NCBI GenBank assembly: GCA_024277595.1
Contig: JAJRUV010000144.1
Location: 1 to 33,123 of the forward strand
DNA length: 33,123 bases
Reading direction: 5' to 3'
From: Gammaproteobacteria bacterium
Lineage (GTDB): Bacteria; Pseudomonadota; Gammaproteobacteria; Thiohalospirales; Thiohalospiraceae
Numbering within the stretch: position 1 is the stretch's first letter; each line of letters opens with the position of its first letter. Under the pieces are notes generated by a model. That model searched no databases and had not been told where the DNA came from. It saw only the letters and a list, made by a program, of their open reading frames with translations. Made by a program: the position numbers and the translations under genes. Below, piece after piece: positions 13,817-26,456 of the stretch.

Positions 13817-13923
13817 ACATAAAAGGTATTTTTATGTGATAAGGTACCTGTGGTTTAATGTTCTTTCTTAAATATTTCAGTCGAGAATCTTTGCTTGAAG
13901 ATTGTGTTTCGATAAAATATAAT
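13817..13923 (+). promoter_or_regulatory. Promoter of the signalling operon, with an upstream AT-rich palindrome
   Basis: TTGAAG (13895-13900) and a perfect TATAAT (13918-13923) are separated by 17 bases, a good sigma-70-type promoter about 40 bases before the kinase start at 13966. About 60 bases upstream lies a perfect inverted repeat ACATAAAA (13817-13824) / TTTTATGT (13830-13837), a possible regulator site. The whole 13735-13965 gap is AT-rich compared with the genes around it. Confidence 0.72.
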
Positions 13924-13965
13924 GCCGTTTTAAAACTATTGAAGAATTGCTGGATTGCTTGAACG

Positions 13966-15081
13966 ATGAAATTAAGACGCGGATTCCATTTTCTGGGTGA
14001 CCGAATGCGTGCAGGTCATCAGCAGTCGCCATTAGCGTCGTCCCGTAGTGAACGCGATCCACACTGGGAATTTGGCCAGATTCTTGACAATATCGATGTC
14101 GGGGTACTGGTCCTTGATCTTGAAGCCCGGCGCATCGACTATCGTAATCCCGTTTTTTGTACCGTTTTGCAGGACACCCGGCTTTGTAACAGCTTTGAAC
14201 GGTTGAATGAGCTGATTCTGTCTGGTCAGACCATGCCCAGGTCTGGTCCGGCATCGGTCCTGATTCCTTATCGTGATCGTACCCTTGGTTGTTCGATCTA
14301 TGAAATCGGGGAACGGTATCGCTGCATATTTATCCGGGATATCAGTGAAAAGATGCGACTTGAGTCGATCGCTCAAGCGGTCAACACCATGGACAATATC
14401 GGATTCATTTTTTCTGGTGTTCGTCACGAGATTGGTAATCCACTCAACTCGCTCAAAATGGCTCTAAGCGTACTGAGAACAAACCTTGACAGTTTCAGTC
14501 GCGAAACGGTTCTCGAATATATCGACCGGGGGCTGGCTGATATCGGACGGGTCGAGTTCTTGCTCAAGTCGATGAAGAGCTTTGCCGTTTTTGAACGCAT
14601 GGAACTGAAGGATGTCGAGCTTGGGGAGTTTATGCGCCGTTTTATGGCGTTGGTGGGTCGCGAGTTCAGCGAGCGAGGCATTTCTCTTGTATTTGCCGAT
14701 CCGATAGATATCGCCCGGGTGCATATCGATGGGCGGGCTTTGCATCAGGCATTGCTGAACTTGCTGGCGAATGCTGCTGATGCCCTTGAAGGGGTGGCTG
14801 ATCCCGAGATTCATATTTTTGCTGAAGAACGGGAGCAATTGGTCCGACTGGTGGTTTCGGATAACGGCTGTGGTATTTCTGATGCGCAAAAACGCCATCT
14901 GTTTAAACCGTTCAATACCAGCAAGCCAGAAGGAAATGGCTTGGGCCTGGTTATTACCCGAAAACTGTTAGCTCAGATGAATGCCGACATCGAAATAGAG
15001 AGCAGCCCGGGGAACGGAACCCTGGCGATTATCAGTCTGCCCCTTAGTTCGGCAGAGAACAAAGCCAGAGACGATTCCTAA
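13966..15081 (+). CDS. Cytosolic PAS-type sensor histidine kinase
   Basis: A 371-residue kinase without membrane segments. Residues about 36-130 look like a PAS domain (FGQILDNIDVGVLVLDLEARRIDYRNPVF). The H-box VRHEIGNPLNSLKMAL contains phospho-acceptor His154. The ATPase domain has N-box LLNLLANAADALEG, G1 DNGCGI and G2 GNGLGL. All catalytic boxes are complete. It is first in an operon and directly precedes a REC-containing protein, so the two are a probable pair. With no membrane anchor, the signal must be intracellular or relayed from the membrane sensor at the operon's end. The ATG at 13966 lacks a strong binding site, so the exact start is less certain. Confidence 0.92.
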   Translation: MKLRRGFHFLGDRMRAGHQQSPLASSRSERDPHWEFGQILDNIDVGVLVLDLEARRIDYRNPVFCTVLQDTRLCNSFERLNELILSGQTMPRSGPASVLIPYRDRTLGCSIYEIGERYRCIFIRDISEKMRLESIAQAVNTMDNIGFIFSGVRHEIGNPLNSLKMALSVLRTNLDSFSRETVLEYIDRGLADIGRVEFLLKSMKSFAVFERMELKDVELGEFMRRFMALVGREFSERGISLVFADPIDIARVHIDGRALHQALLNLLANAADALEGVADPEIHIFAEEREQLVRLVVSDNGCGISDAQKRHLFKPFNTSKPEGNGLGLVITRKLLAQMNADIEIESSPGNGTLAIISLPLSSAENKARDDS

Positions 15082-15105
15082 GTCGTCAGACACACAGGAT
15101 AGACT

Positions 15106-16224
15106 ATGACTGACAATACCGGCCTTGAAACGGTCCTGATTGTTGATGATGAAAAAACATTTTTGTTGTCCCTCAAGGATGGGTTGAAAATCCATGAGGA
15201 CAAGTTTCGCGTTCTGACGGCGGAAAGTGGCAAAGAGGCCGTTTCCCTGTTGCGAGCCCTGCCGGTCGACCTGCTGGTTACTGACCTCAAGATGCCGGAA
15301 ATGGACGGCTTTGAATTGTTGGCCTGGACGACACGGGAAAGACCGGATCTGCCGGTGATCGTGATGACGGCATTCGGAACCTCCGATATCGAAGCCCAGC
15401 TGGCAGAAATCGAAACCCTGCAGTATCTGGAAAAACCCCTGGCTCTGGCTGATCTTGAAAACGCCATTTTTACGACCTTAAAGGCCAAGGCTCGCAGTTA
15501 TATCCGTGGTATCGCGCTGGCAACCTTTCTTCAGCTGATGCACATGGAAAAAAAGACCTGCACTCTCAAAATTGCTCAGGGACAACGTAATGGCTATCTT
15601 TACCTGAAAAGGGGAGAGTTGCTGGATGCCGAGTGTGGGGAACTGCACGGTGAGAGTGCTGCCTATGAGATCATGGCCTGGGAAGATGCTGAAATAGAAA
15701 TGGATTCGGTCTGTCGTCGCCAGGAGCAGGTGATTACCACCGGGCTTGAACATCTGCTCATTGATGCGTTCAGGCGTAAGGATGAAGACAGTCGAGACAA
15801 TTCAGCATCATCTTTTGCTGAACCGCCTCCTGTGTCGGGGGAGGAGACAGAAGTATTCCCAGGGGTTGTAGGCGCAGGAGAGAGCTCACCCGAGGTTGTT
15901 GCACGACAAAAGCTGGTAGAGGTTCTTACCCGTCATCCGGGAGTGCAGGAGTTCGCCCTGTTTGATTCGACCGGTTTTCTTGAGAACTGTAACGAGGGAA
16001 AATGCAGCCTTGAAGATTTCGATCCGGTTCTTTTTCTGCAACAGGTAGAACGTCTCGATGACGTGTTGAGTTTTGGATCTTTCAGTCATATGTCGATTAC
16101 GACGGCCAGCAGATTTCATTGCCTGTTTTTTCGTTTTCAACAGCATCGGGTTGTGGTCAAGCTGGCCAGAGGGCAGCGGCCCTCTGCTGTTATGAAGCAG
16201 GTTAAACAATATCTGTGTCGATAG
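15106..16224 (+). CDS. Response regulator: REC + DUF4388/PATAN-like domain + C-terminal roadblock-like region
   Basis: A 372-residue protein. Residues 7-122 form a receiver domain with DD acidic pair, phospho-acceptor Asp60 (LLVTDLKMPEMDGFE) and Lys110 (LEKPL). Residues about 125-230 resemble DUF4388/PATAN (SYIRGIALATFLQLMHMEKKTCTLKI ... GYLYLKRGELLDAECGELHGESAAYEIMAWE). After an acidic Ser/Pro/Glu linker, residues about 262-372 form another alpha/beta domain (VEVLTRHPGVQEFALFDSTGFLENCNEG) similar in pattern to the two downstream roadblock-like proteins. There is no DNA-binding domain, so output is probably by protein contact. It lies 24 bases after the kinase. Confidence 0.88.
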   Translation: MTDNTGLETVLIVDDEKTFLLSLKDGLKIHEDKFRVLTAESGKEAVSLLRALPVDLLVTDLKMPEMDGFELLAWTTRERPDLPVIVMTAFGTSDIEAQLAEIETLQYLEKPLALADLENAIFTTLKAKARSYIRGIALATFLQLMHMEKKTCTLKIAQGQRNGYLYLKRGELLDAECGELHGESAAYEIMAWEDAEIEMDSVCRRQEQVITTGLEHLLIDAFRRKDEDSRDNSASSFAEPPPVSGEETEVFPGVVGAGESSPEVVARQKLVEVLTRHPGVQEFALFDSTGFLENCNEGKCSLEDFDPVLFLQQVERLDDVLSFGSFSHMSITTASRFHCLFFRFQQHRVVVKLARGQRPSAVMKQVKQYLCR

Positions 16225-16287
16225 TTCACCAGACGACGTTCAGGGACTATTCAGTTTCGAGCTGCGATCAGCGAAAAGGAGAAGAGC

Positions 16288-16902
16288 ATGAAGCAGGCAA
16301 TTGATGAACTCAAGGCCATCCCGGGTGTGGTTGGTGCCTGCCTGTTCAGTACCCAGAGTGGACTGCAACAGAGCAATCTTCCGGGGATTTTCAAGCCGGA
16401 AAAACTGACCGAGGTTGGTAAGCAGTTGAGTAAGCTGTTGACCGCCGGGCGGATGAGTTTCAGTGATATCAATGACCTGGCCTTGCACTATGATGAGTCG
16501 GTGGTGATTGCCCGTGAGCTGCGTAAGGGGCTGACAGTCTTTGCTATTTGCGATCCTTCATTCAATCACAATCTGCTGACAATGTCGCTCAATCTGCTGC
16601 AGGAGGAGTTGCGCGACCAGCCGGAGTCCTTGCAGGCATCTGGCCCGGCAGTCGCTGCTTCGGGTCCGGCTCCGGTCGGGGCTGAACTTGAGCCTGTCGT
16701 CACAGAACTCAAAGAATTGCTGGCAAAAATTCTTGGGCCGATGGCCGGGATTATTTTTGAAGAAATCCAGCAGGAATGGGCGCAGCAGGGGGCGACAGCG
16801 GCACGGTTGCCCGAACTGATTGAGATGCTCAATAAAGAGATTGGTGACCCGGAAAAAATAGCGGCTTACGAATCTTTGACCGCACCGTTGCTTCAGGTAT
16901 AA
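16288..16902 (+). CDS. Roadblock/LC7-like protein with a helical C-terminal domain
   Basis: A 204-residue soluble protein. Residues 1 to about 100 show the roadblock pattern (IDELKAIPGVVGACLFSTQSGLQQSNLPG, then VVIARELRKGLTVFAICDPSFNHNLLTMSLNLL). An Ala/Pro-rich linker at about 113-132 leads to a helical domain (ELKELLAKILGPMAGIIFEEIQQEWAQQG). Roadblock proteins such as MglB usually act on Ras-like GTPases or as dimeric scaffolds, but no such GTPase lies in this window. A strong AAAAGGAG precedes the ATG. Assignment is by pattern. Confidence 0.68.
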   Translation: MKQAIDELKAIPGVVGACLFSTQSGLQQSNLPGIFKPEKLTEVGKQLSKLLTAGRMSFSDINDLALHYDESVVIARELRKGLTVFAICDPSFNHNLLTMSLNLLQEELRDQPESLQASGPAVAASGPAPVGAELEPVVTELKELLAKILGPMAGIIFEEIQQEWAQQGATAARLPELIEMLNKEIGDPEKIAAYESLTAPLLQV

Positions 16903-16913
16903 GGGAGGGGCAT

Positions 16914-17273
16914 ATGGCAACAGCCAAAGAATTTGTAGCCAGAATTACCGAGATTGACGGTGTGTCAGGCTGTGTTCTGGTCAGGGAAGATGGCGAAATA
17001 ATTGGTCGCAGTCTGGAGGACCCGGACCTTTACGCATCGCTGATGATTCTTGGTGGAACCTCGGCGCGTGGAATTATGGATAAGGTCGGGTTCAGTTACT
17101 GCCGCTATCTCAGTTTTAATCGGGAAGGCAAGCAGCACTTTCACCTGTTTCCGATCGACAAGTTCTATCTTGGGGTTGTCCAGACCCCCGAATGCTATGT
17201 CCCCGATATGTTGCAGGCTGTCCTGCGGCTTATCGGGCGGGTAACAACAGGGACATCGCCGGAAGAGGAATGA
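16914..17273 (+). CDS. Roadblock/LC7-like small protein
   Basis: A 119-residue single-domain protein with the roadblock pattern FVARITEIDGVSGCVLVREDGEIIGRSLED, a middle helix (DLYASLMILGGTSARGIMDKVG), a strand pair (QHFHLFPIDKFYLGVVQTP) and a final helix (MLQAVLRLIGRV). It starts 11 bases after the previous roadblock-like gene with a good GGGAGGGG site. Two different roadblock-like proteins in a row suggest a heteromeric scaffold tied to the preceding two-component pair. No GTPase partner is seen. Confidence 0.7.
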   Translation: MATAKEFVARITEIDGVSGCVLVREDGEIIGRSLEDPDLYASLMILGGTSARGIMDKVGFSYCRYLSFNREGKQHFHLFPIDKFYLGVVQTPECYVPDMLQAVLRLIGRVTTGTSPEEE

Positions 17274-17337
17274 TTCGGGTGGTGACCCAATGGAGAGAGG
17301 GGGAAGGTTCGACTGATATCCAGGGAGGATGATGCTC

Positions 17338-17916
17338 ATGCGTTTGATCCAGCTGTTGATGTTGTTCATGTTGCTGCCTGCCCCGTTACAGGCTCTTGAA
17401 TTGAACGCTTTTGATCAGAAGGTAAAGGGGTGGGCAGAAGACTGTCGCGATGAAATCAGGACCCAGTTTGATCTCTTGCTGACCTCGGGAAAACTTTCTG
17501 TTCCCCAGCTTTTTGATACTTTCTATATTCCGATTCCCAATACATCGCCACAAAAATTTCATACCCAGTATGATCGGGTGACCGATGGTGTCATCAGGCC
17601 GATTATCGATAAATATCTTGCGCTGGACAAACGTCTGGTTTTTGTTGTGCCGGTCGATGTTAATGGTTATCTGCCGACACATAACAGCCGTTACTCGCGC
17701 CCCCTTACCGGTGATAGTGATGTCGATGCCAAATGGAATCGCACCAAAAGGCTTTTCAGCGATCGAACCGGCCTGGCTGCCGCCCACAATAAAAAACCAT
17801 TTTTACTGCAACGTTACAGCCGGGATACGGGCGAAGTTATGAGTGATCTTTCTGTGCCGATCATCATCCAGAACCGCCACTGGGGTGCTGTCAGGATCGG
17901 CTATCGGCAGAAATAA
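17338..17916 (+). CDS. Exported stand-alone sensory-domain protein (paralogue of the next gene's periplasmic domain)
   Basis: A 192-residue protein with a signal peptide (MRLIQLLMLFMLLPAPLQA) and no later membrane segment, so it should be free in the periplasm. The mature part shares a clear pattern with the next gene: FY-IPIP, HT-YD, VDVNGYLPTHN-RY, TGD, NRTKR-F-D--G--AA-NK-P-L-----RDTGE, D-S-PI, HWG--RIG. The VDVNGYLPTHN...HWG signature is, as I recall, found as a module in some chemoreceptors; the ligand is unknown. Three ATGs are possible (17329, 17332, 17338); 17338 gives the best distance (9) to GGAGG at 17324-17328. Confidence 0.82.
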   Translation: MRLIQLLMLFMLLPAPLQALELNAFDQKVKGWAEDCRDEIRTQFDLLLTSGKLSVPQLFDTFYIPIPNTSPQKFHTQYDRVTDGVIRPIIDKYLALDKRLVFVVPVDVNGYLPTHNSRYSRPLTGDSDVDAKWNRTKRLFSDRTGLAAAHNKKPFLLQRYSRDTGEVMSDLSVPIIIQNRHWGAVRIGYRQK

Positions 17917-17954
17917 TCCTGCCGTTTTATTTGCATAAAGTTCAGGAGGTAAAT

Positions 17955-18848
17955 GTGTTCAAGAAAGTTGGAGTCAAGGTGGCCGTTATGGCCAATCTGG
18001 TACTACTGGTCGTCATGTCTGCGGGGACCTGGTACATCGTGGATCAGCAGGGGAAAAGTTTGGAAAACCAATTGCTCGAACGGGGGCGGATCGAAGCGTT
18101 GGTTGGAGCCAAGCTGATTGGCAAGGTCATGGATGAGGCGATCGATAACGGGGTTTTCTCGGTCAAAGATGCGTTTGATCAGGCCTATGTGCCAATTCCC
18201 GGTTTCGAGCCGGAAAAGTATCACACCAAGTATGATGCTTATCTCGATAAAGCGATATTGGCAATGGAGGATGAGTTTTTACGTGATGACTCAGTCGTTT
18301 TTGCAGTTGCGGTTGACGTTAATGGATATCTGCCGACGCACAATACCCGTTATCAAAAACCGATTACCGGTGACAGACAAAAGGATCTGGTCGGCAATCG
18401 CACCAAGCGGATTTTCAATGACCCGGTTGGTATTCGGGCGGCACAAAATAAAGAACCGGTTTTGCGCCAGGTTTATCATCGGGATACCGGAGAGACGATG
18501 TGGGACATTTCGTCGCCAATTATGGTCAAGGGTAAGCACTGGGGTGGGTTCCGGATCGGATTTTCCCTCAACAAAACCCAGCAGGCCAAGTCTGATCTCA
18601 CGGTCAAGCTGGGGGCGATTATGGTCGGGATTTTGTTGCTGTCGACTATCCTGGTCTTCATTATCGTTAATGGCGCACTGGCTCCCCTGTCCAAACTGAC
18701 AAGTATCGCCGGTAATCTTGCCGATGGCCGGGTCGATGAAAAGATTGAAAAGCACAGTGATGATGAAATCGGTCAGCTGGCCGATGTGCTGGAGCGTCTG
18801 CGTGTCAGCCTGAAAGCTGCGATGGATAGATTGTCCCGGTCAAGGTAG
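17955..18848 (+). CDS. Membrane sensor with periplasmic ligand domain and HAMP, no output domain
   Basis: A 297-residue protein: membrane segment at about 9-28 (VAVMANLVLLVVMSAGTWYIV), a periplasmic domain at about 30-210 paralogous to the previous gene (VDVNGYLPTHN, KHWGGFRIGF), a second membrane segment at about 216-238 (LGAIMVGILLLSTILVFIIV), and a HAMP-like region (APLSKLTSIAGNLADGR ... SDDEIGQLADVLERLRVSL). It ends soon after HAMP with no methyl-accepting, kinase or cyclase domain. A GTG start at 17955 with AGGAGG (17944-17949) five bases before is better supported than the TTG at 17931. It probably passes its signal to the cytosolic kinase or roadblock proteins by contact. Last gene before a hairpin terminator. 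Confidence 0.86.
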   Translation: MFKKVGVKVAVMANLVLLVVMSAGTWYIVDQQGKSLENQLLERGRIEALVGAKLIGKVMDEAIDNGVFSVKDAFDQAYVPIPGFEPEKYHTKYDAYLDKAILAMEDEFLRDDSVVFAVAVDVNGYLPTHNTRYQKPITGDRQKDLVGNRTKRIFNDPVGIRAAQNKEPVLRQVYHRDTGETMWDISSPIMVKGKHWGGFRIGFSLNKTQQAKSDLTVKLGAIMVGILLLSTILVFIIVNGALAPLSKLTSIAGNLADGRVDEKIEKHSDDEIGQLADVLERLRVSLKAAMDRLSRSR

Positions 18849-18873
18849 TTATTGGCTGTGATTACAGAATAAG

Positions 18874-18911
18874 CAAAGAGCAGGTTCGGTACATACCGGA
18901 CCTGCTCTTTG
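18874..18911. terminator. Long hairpin between the sensor operon and nikR
   Basis: A 17-bp stem (18874-18890 with 18895-18911, one G-T pair) around a 4-base loop lies between two convergent genes. There is no good T run on the plus-strand side, so it is a probable bidirectional stop or mRNA 3' hairpin rather than a classical terminator. Confidence 0.7.
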
Positions 18912-25772: not shown

Positions 25773-26456
25773 ATGATTGTCGGTTTTAACCATAATGTGC
25801 TGTATCTGGGGGTCAGTTTTCACGTCCAGACCGAGGATGGCGGGTTGAAAAGCCCGAGCCTGGTGACGCTGCTGTACCACGGCGGGATCATTGTTTCGTC
25901 TCAGAAGACGTCTTATGCCGACATCCTGGGAGTCGATAATCTCAATCAGGTGGTTGAAGATCTGGCCAAGGAACAACATAAAGGTATGCTGCGTCGTTTA
26001 ACCAGGGGGGAATTTGACGAGCGCATTCGTAAGTTTGGAATCAAGATCGAGGGAGAACCGTCGGAGACGACAGCGGAAGAGCCGACTGTGGATGCTGCGG
26101 ATGAGGCTTCTGCCGTGGCACAGGATTCAGAGGAGGTTATCTCCGCGCCGGTCGAGGCAGAAACTCCTGCGGAACCTGTGGCGGCGGAAGCGACTGAGGA
26201 GCCACTGCTGGGTGAAGAAATCGAAGAACTTGAAGCTGTCCCGCTGGATCTGCCTGCGACTGATGAGGATCAGTCTCAAGAGGCACCGGTGGTTGCCGAT
26301 GAGGTTTCTCCGCCGGTGGTTGAGGAGCTTCAGGTAGCGATCGAGCCGGCATTTGATCCTCCCAGTGCTGAAGATCGAAATTCACATCAGGATGTTTCAG
26401 AGGCTCTTGACGACCTTATCTTTTCTTATCTGACGGAGGGCAATGAAAAAGGCTGA
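25773..26456 (+). CDS. Conserved hypothetical protein with basic/globular N-terminus and long acidic Ala-Glu-Pro tail
   Basis: A 227-residue soluble protein. The first 90 residues (MIVGFNHNVLYLGVSFHVQTEDGG, HGGIIVSSQKTSYADILG, EEQ-like VVEDLAKEQHKGMLRRLTRGEFDERI) look like a conserved small domain that, from memory, is shared among Desulfuromonadia and Myxococcota, with no known function. Residues about 95-205 are low-complexity, very rich in Glu, Ala, Pro and Val, probably disordered. A short helix (DVSEALDDLIFSYLTEG) ends it. ATG at 25773 with AGGGGA before it. Its end overlaps the next gene by 14 bases, and a kinase/regulator pair follows, so it may belong to that system. Confidence 0.82.
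   Translation: MIVGFNHNVLYLGVSFHVQTEDGGLKSPSLVTLLYHGGIIVSSQKTSYADILGVDNLNQVVEDLAKEQHKGMLRRLTRGEFDERIRKFGIKIEGEPSETTAEEPTVDAADEASAVAQDSEEVISAPVEAETPAEPVAAEATEEPLLGEEIEELEAVPLDLPATDEDQSQEAPVVADEVSPPVVEELQVAIEPAFDPPSAEDRNSHQDVSEALDDLIFSYLTEGNEKG

Follow-up and report, generated by a model that had tools for sequence, protein, structure and literature searches.

In this study, we analyzed a contig of 33,123 nucleotides (JAJRUV010000144.1, assembly GCA_024277595.1, hereafter the window), which carries a six-gene operon coding, in this order, for a histidine kinase (HK), a response regulator (RR), two roadblock proteins (R1 and R2), a free periplasmic sensor (S1) and a membrane sensor that stops after its HAMP domain (S2). 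We have very little doubt about the existence of this unit and its domain content. Receptors such as S2, with HAMP but no output domain, hereafter named HAMP-only receptors, are associated with a version of R1 that is STAC-like in its C-terminal part. We propose, with evenly divided confidence, that the operon encodes a split receptor relay, in which the HAMP-only receptor signals to a STAC-roadblock adaptor, itself tied to a phosphorelay with a PATAN regulator.

S2 consists of an extracytoplasmic sensor, transmembrane helices, and HAMP as its sole cytosolic part. Its start was placed at the GTG codon at 17955, behind AGGAGG (297 residues), and not at the TTG at 17931. The protein ends at the same place in 20 of 20 alignment rows, the stop codon falling about 10 residues past HAMP in S2 and its orthologs. 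The HAMP domain itself has a particular ending, R[LM][RG].S[LIM], which among the fetched loci is present in 39 of 42 HAMP-only proteins versus 0 of 7 proteins where HAMP is followed by an output. The three HAMP-only proteins outside this pattern are one cut by a contig end and two reading [KR]IRISM; endings are more varied in Desulfobulbales (RMQTSL, RLRIST). The pattern was not seen among the output-bearing HAMP proteins listed for D. kysingii. Sensor-HAMP proteins related to S2 but lacking the ERLR motif are fused to methyl-accepting chemotaxis protein (MCP) or kinase modules, and most of the fusions that were read have FN.M instead of the ERLR-type ending; over long open frames, S2 profile matches mostly ended near position 281-288. 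The nearest PDB match to the S2 HAMP is the HAMP of Af1503, an archaeal receptor, and ERLRxSLKxAM is common to both.

R1, the second actor of the proposal, is an apparent fusion. Pfam and NCBIfam scans of the whole protein and of its C-domain returned no family, and comparison of its N-domain with roadblock proteins by hhalign was weak; the roadblock fold was settled by the structural model, which Foldseek matched to Roadblock/LC7 3kye (E 4.9e-7) and to Myxococcus MglB 6hjm (E 1e-5), identity to MglB in the structural alignment being only about 10%. The C-terminal ~73 residues contain a GPxA motif, in which G150, P151 and A153 are invariant in 25 of 25 aligned orthologs. Modelled in isolation, this domain has four helices (pLDDT, the predicted local distance difference test, of 92.2), with GPM lying between helices 4-21 and 25-38, and thus shows the STAC hallmark, an LGPx(x)A motif at the junction of the first two helices. 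This motif is found in STAC proteins like Af1502, to which archaeal HAMP-only receptors of the Af1503 kind are coupled (PMC4834066). The Af1502/STAC hypothesis was set down from reading on Af1503, before the profile and fold searches were made. In the fold search, Af1502 (5A1Q) ranked first of 350,542 PDB chains (TM-scores 0.57/0.62, root mean square deviation 2.9, Foldseek E 2.6), and it was included, at E 0.77, in the 11 matches at E <= 10 that the R1 C-domain profile obtained against 177,635 PDB sequences. Because Af1502 was the single protein named in advance, these scores carry weight, and we consider it probable that the R1 C-domain is STAC-like.

We then quantified the association between receptor and R1 on loci chosen by R1 similarity, not by receptor. 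Of the 194 genomes in the class, 75 had a match to the R1 profile, and 40 of the matching places were read together with their flanks. When the match spanned the R1 C-domain, a HAMP-only receptor was present in the fetched stretch in 32 of 33 loci, versus 0 of 7 when it did not (table 32/1/0/7, p 4e-7 by Fisher's test, relatedness ignored, with a split by span that was made after the loci were seen). The remaining span-positive locus, L146, has its HAMP-only receptor in a shifted frame. Taking the GPxA pattern as criterion instead gave 26/1/6/7 (p 6e-4), a weaker table because divergent R1 proteins, over which the profile still spans the C-domain (e.g. L118, L125, L140, L142, L149, L150), miss the exact pattern. 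To the extent that R1 is counted as a STAC protein, a HAMP-only receptor would thus be gene-coupled to a STAC protein in 32 of 33 loci. On the scale of genomes, a HAMP-only S2 was found in 31 of 190, all of which have an R1-family match; this match is strong in 29 of these 31, versus 13 of the 159 other genomes.

The phosphorelay part of the operon appears complete. A scan for HK in named genomes gave 48 loci; H154 and E155 are invariant in 48 of 48, and N269, D299 and G325 in all 47 with letters at these positions. In RR, D60 and K110 are kept in all 45 orthologs with letters there. Judged from their sequences, HK and RR therefore have the phosphoacceptor His and Asp and the catalytic residues of a two-component pair. 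RR joins its receiver (REC) to a PATAN/DUF4388 domain (E 9e-15, found in 22 of 22 orthologs), as PATAN regulators do. Its C-terminal domain is roadblock-like: hhalign aligned the profile of this domain to R2 across 112 columns (E 1e-9), and Robl_LC7 matched 3 of 22 orthologs (best 1.9e-5). For R2, the window copy scores E 0.036 against Robl_LC7, under the Pfam cut-off, and 17 of 21 orthologs score E <= 0.1 (best 6.2e-6). The operon thus has three roadblock-like domains, recognized by orthologs in R2, by the model in the R1 N-domain and by profile comparison in RR. As for the sensors, the S1 and S2 sensor domains are paralogous (51% identity), sCache_3_2 matched 5 of 18 S1 orthologs (best 2.7e-4), and comparison of the sensor domain by sequence with solved structures gave TlpB, at E 0.53, as sole match. 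In the Desulfobulbales loci L041-L053, the kinase has its own membrane helices and a GAF/PAS-like front part.

An original prediction, made by a model from the letters of the window, had described much of this content. The soluble PAS kinase was recognized by Pfam in its three parts, the free periplasmic domain does have a signal sequence, the last sensor stops after HAMP not only in the window but in S2 orthologs, and kinase, regulator, roadblock proteins and sensors are each on their own chain, all six genes being present. Two descriptions needed completion. The "REC-DUF4388 regulator" is correct for these two domains but had overlooked the third roadblock domain at the C-terminus, and the two roadblock-like proteins are indeed R1 and R2, the STAC-like domain of R1 having escaped notice. 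Coordinates are given in Table 1.

Table 1. Features of the six-gene operon in the window.
Feature	Position	Strand	Basis
Six-gene operon HK/RR/R1/R2/S1/S2	13966-18848	+	intergenic gaps of 11-63 bases
Sigma-70-like promoter, TTGAAG-17-TATAAT	13895..13923	+	10-of-12 match
HK, soluble PAS histidine kinase, 371 aa; PAS 38-80, HisKA with H154, HATPase_c	13966..15081	+	Pfam
RR, REC - DUF4388/PATAN - roadblock, 372 aa, phosphoacceptor D60	15106..16224	+	Pfam
RR C-terminal roadblock-like domain, residues ~265-372	15898..16221	+	profile comparison, Pfam in orthologs
R1, roadblock fused to probable STAC-like domain, 204 aa	16288..16902	+	AlphaFold2 model, pLDDT 88.9
R1 probable STAC-like four-helix C-domain, LGPMA motif	16681..16899	+	alignments, model, fold and profile searches
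R2, stand-alone roadblock/LC7 protein, 119 aa	16914..17273	+	Robl_LC7 in orthologs
S1, free periplasmic sensor with signal sequence, sCache_3-like, 195 aa	17329..17916	+	paralogy, Pfam in orthologs
S2, transmembrane helix - sensor - transmembrane helix - HAMP, no output domain, 297 aa	17955..18848	+	HAMP E 5e-8
Conserved end of S2 HAMP, ERLRVSLKAAMDRL, typical of HAMP-only receptors	18792..18833	+	motif count
Terminator hairpin ending the operon, convergent with nikR	18875-18910	.	read from sequence

Gene order is conserved well beyond the window, with named relatives in Desulfuromonadales and Desulfobulbales. The full order HK/RR/R1/R2/S1/S2 was found in L017, L019-L022, L040, L116-L121, L123 and L124; more loci keep the stretch from RR to S2. 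Throughout Desulfuromonadales, HK-RR-R1-R2 occurs in almost every locus with a long enough contig, and in Desulfobulbales HK-RR-R1 does. The receptor, on its side, is exchanged: a dCache_1-type HAMP-only protein holds the place of S1-S2 in L115, L125 and L142, and in a Geothermobacter example (L039). In a third type of locus (L122, L126, L131-L133, L143, L147, L151), of which L131 was scanned against Pfam, a Tll0287-like HAMP-only protein, a TPR-OmpA protein and a roadblock protein accompany R1. L137 and L138 have a dCache_3 HAMP-only protein, R1 standing beside the receptor with no PATAN regulator, and in L041 and L042 a Cache_3-Cache_2 HAMP-only protein is encoded ~4-5 kb upstream of R1. Five input domains are thus found on R1-associated HAMP-only receptors: sCache_3-like, dCache_1, Cache_3-Cache_2, Tll0287-like and dCache_3. 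At least two HAMP-only proteins are encoded elsewhere in D. kysingii, one of them adjoining a second R1 (L131). S1-S2 also stands alone, apart from the operon, in Geothermobacter- and Desulfuromusa-type genomes (L250-L256). That the order recurs in many Desulfuromonadia answers the check suggested with the original prediction, which a lack of conservation would have overturned.

Three side observations concern these loci. The block at L131:7897-10677, with its Tll0287-like CxxCH HAMP-only receptor and without PATAN regulator, looks like a heme-binding version. In L135, L136, L141 and L152-L154, a PATAN-roadblock gene is followed by an R1-like roadblock protein with a different C-terminus, and there is no HAMP-only receptor nearby. 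Proteins of ~1080 residues in L215-L218, read by eye, combine an SLC5 transporter part and a STAC-like stretch with ends that are GAF-like and of a PP2C-like phosphatase type; they are apparent transceptors of Desulfuromonadia.

The following mechanism can be proposed. S2, presumably a dimeric membrane receptor, would sense a small molecule through its sCache-like periplasmic domain, and S1, a free copy of this domain, may tune or compete with it. The specialised end helix of the S2 HAMP (ERLRxSLKxAM) would then signal by contact to the STAC-like domain of R1. This contact is proposed by analogy with the gene-coupled archaeal pair Af1503/Af1502; the HAMP-to-STAC step, which the association above supports, seems to us marginally favoured. 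The roadblock domain of R1 would pair with R2, with the roadblock domain of RR, or with both, so that receptor, kinase and REC-PATAN regulator would come together in a single complex; this would control PAS kinase activity, or else the state or location of the regulator. HK would phosphorylate D60 of RR, whose PATAN domain would most likely act on the type IV pilus motor or on the MglA polarity machinery. In this scheme, gene order, domain content, the conserved phosphorelay residues and the association of HAMP-only receptors with the STAC-like version of R1 are observed; the contact between HAMP and STAC, the pairing of roadblock domains and the output are what we infer. For the output, motility or polarity is a guess from the PATAN domain, based on the binding of Synechocystis PATAN regulators to the pilus motor PilB (PMC10519157, PMC7690835), and we regard an output on type IV pili or polarity as possible but doubtful. 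More broadly, and tentatively, HAMP-only receptors may form a general class in bacteria and archaea, with any input domain, and with an output given in trans by a STAC-type adaptor, on which a HAMP with the ERLRxSL ending would dock; in Desulfobacterota, the adaptor would be the STAC-roadblock fusion, leading to roadblock assemblies and a PATAN regulator.

Several points weigh against this reading. The STAC match is weak if taken alone, neither the profile E of 0.77 nor the Foldseek E of 2.6 being significant singly, and the R1 C-domain profile gave no match with the STAC-like regions of SLC5 fusion proteins from the same class. Helices 1 and 2 are merged (135-166) in the model of full-length R1, and separate only in that of the isolated domain. 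Desulfuromusa-type loci have HK-RR-R1-R2 without an adjacent sensor, so that the sensor genes can lie elsewhere, or other sensors can be used. The output assignment rests on domain analogy. Finally, all 11 genomes with the module that were searched have an MglA-like GTPase, which in most loci read is accompanied by a neighbouring MglB-like roadblock gene, but MglA is near-universal in the class (179 of 190 genomes) and therefore gives no specific link to the operon; its co-occurrence was rejected as evidence for a GTPase link. The search for MglA-like GTPases suggested with the original prediction did find them, and the statement that the GTPase is missing holds for the operon itself, not for the genomes searched.

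The same MglA observations bear on a reading in which R1, R2 and RR would be a sensor-controlled input to MglA polarity, acting like a GTPase-activating protein (GAP) or a guanine nucleotide exchange factor (GEF), in the manner of RomR/RomX and MglB/RomY of Myxococcus. The fold of the R1 N-domain resembles MglB, PATAN genes are found near some Group 1 and 5 MglA genes (PMC4316618), and a protein with a RomY N-terminal domain (NF053858, E 6e-34, the family taking its name from RomY, a partner of MglB) is encoded at 25773-26456, 7 kb downstream of the operon. However, the operon itself has no GTPase gene, the presence of MglA in 11 of 11 module genomes is uninformative for the reason given above, and the resemblance to MglB comes with about 10% identity. 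We consider this reading, which overlaps the output step of the split relay, somewhat unlikely. Less likely still, the HAMP of S2 might touch the PAS domain of the kinase in trans, leaving the roadblock proteins as scaffold or on the output side. HAMP and PAS are thought to contact each other in the aerotaxis receptor Aer; HK is soluble, has an N-terminal PAS and intact catalytic residues, and a relative with the same sensor is fused to a PAS-histidine kinase in L262, others being fused to MCP modules. What speaks against such a direct contact is the composition of L122, L126, L131-L133, L143, L146, L147 and L151, where HAMP-only receptor, roadblock protein and R1 form a block without PATAN regulator and any kinase lies beyond another gene, together with the position of R1 beside the receptor, without the PATAN regulator, in L137 and L138. 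R1 is the constant receptor partner, and this weighs against direct S2-kinase signalling.

Two further explanations concern the role of the sensors. S1-S2 could be a separate two-gene cassette lying beside a complete HK-RR-R1-R2 system, its position reflecting history and not function, as its isolated copies in L250-L256 and the many loci having HK-RR-R1-R2 without S1-S2 might suggest. But R1-family proteins accompany the HAMP-only S2 in 31 of 31 genomes, and other HAMP-only receptors occupy the same place next to R1, which makes the cassette very unlikely in our view. Alternatively, the unit could gate or report on a transporter rather than motility, since genes for Af1503-like receptors often have transport genes nearby and STAC links SLC5 transporters with kinases (PMC4834066, PMC13022988). 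Yet, in the locus types examined, where most unlabelled neighbours are unannotated, we recognised no transporter gene within the conserved unit, and the flanking genes nikR/nrdD and nitroreductase/FKBP/dinB change with the lineage. We regard transport control as most unlikely.

How does the proposed split relay compare with known systems? Af1503/Af1502 of Archaeoglobus fulgidus is among the closest, with an extracytoplasmic sensor, HAMP as sole cytosolic part, and a gene-coupled small four-helix domain with LGPx(x)A. S2/R1 differs in being bacterial, with the STAC-like domain fused to a roadblock, at least five input domains, and an operon adding a PAS kinase, a PATAN regulator and a second roadblock protein. 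S2 is therefore a receptor working like Af1503, outside the archaeal family as described, with relatives in Desulfuromonadales and Desulfobulbales. SLC5-STAC histidine kinases (CbrA, CrbS, RpuS) also have a STAC-type domain between membrane input and a PAS kinase pathway, but there the input is a transporter and not a HAMP receptor, and the domains are not on separate chains. Actinobacterial conservons (CvnA-D) likewise make a kinase-type membrane sensor work with a roadblock protein; they possess a GTPase of their own and CvnC but lack a response regulator, whereas the operon has a REC-PATAN regulator, and neither a Ras-like GTPase nor CvnC was found in the six-gene unit. RR resembles the Synechocystis PATAN-CheY regulators PixG, PixE and LsiR (receiver plus PATAN/DUF4388, no DNA-binding domain), except that REC comes first, a roadblock follows PATAN, and the operon has no pilus gene. 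Finally, the Myxococcus module MglA/MglB/RomR/RomX/RomY shares with the operon its roadblock proteins and a non-DNA-binding receiver protein; in the operon's case the GTPase is encoded elsewhere and the receiver architecture is different.

Taken separately, the pairing of HAMP-only receptors and STAC, the proximity of roadblock proteins to PATAN, and two-component operons are already known. The combination found in the operon, the apparent roadblock-STAC fusion and the swap of five inputs were not found in the literature searched, which did not cover the original STAC paper. Af1503 is a main structural model of HAMP, a standard relay of bacterial receptors, and has no recognizable effector. 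Its bacterial HAMP-only counterparts have a constant partner, an apparent fusion of STAC and roadblock, and their operons include a complete phosphorelay, so that the target of a HAMP-only receptor can be tested directly on soluble components. Elsewhere, roadblock proteins are known for controlling GTPases; here they are tied to sensing across the membrane, in an operon that has no GTPase. The operon is carried by marine sulfur- and iron-reducing bacteria, and it suggests what output-less receptors talk to.

With respect to its origin, the contig (1-33123) was probably binned wrongly. The genome set in which it lies looks like a different class, and was of no use for finding relatives. Identity of NrdD reaches 97% with that of a deltaproteobacterial metagenome-assembled genome (L017) but ~52% with those of same-genus genomes, R2 is absent from every same-genus genome compared, and another contig of the same assembly, with an rpoS-like gene adjoining a roadblock/GTPase-like operon, looks gammaproteobacterial.

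Comparison with close relatives also bears on transcription. Promoter boxes TTGNAG and TATAATGC precede the kinase gene in L017, L019 and L021, where they follow the terminator of the preceding gene, and hairpins of the same shape but other sequence stand at the terminator position after the last gene in L017, L019, L021 and L116. The single promoter and single transcription unit that had been predicted are therefore borne out by signals kept in close relatives. An additional terminator-like hairpin lies in the S1/S2 gap (17905-17924); it is shared with L017 and L019, not with L020, L022 and L116, and may lower S2 relative to S1 in the lineage of the window.

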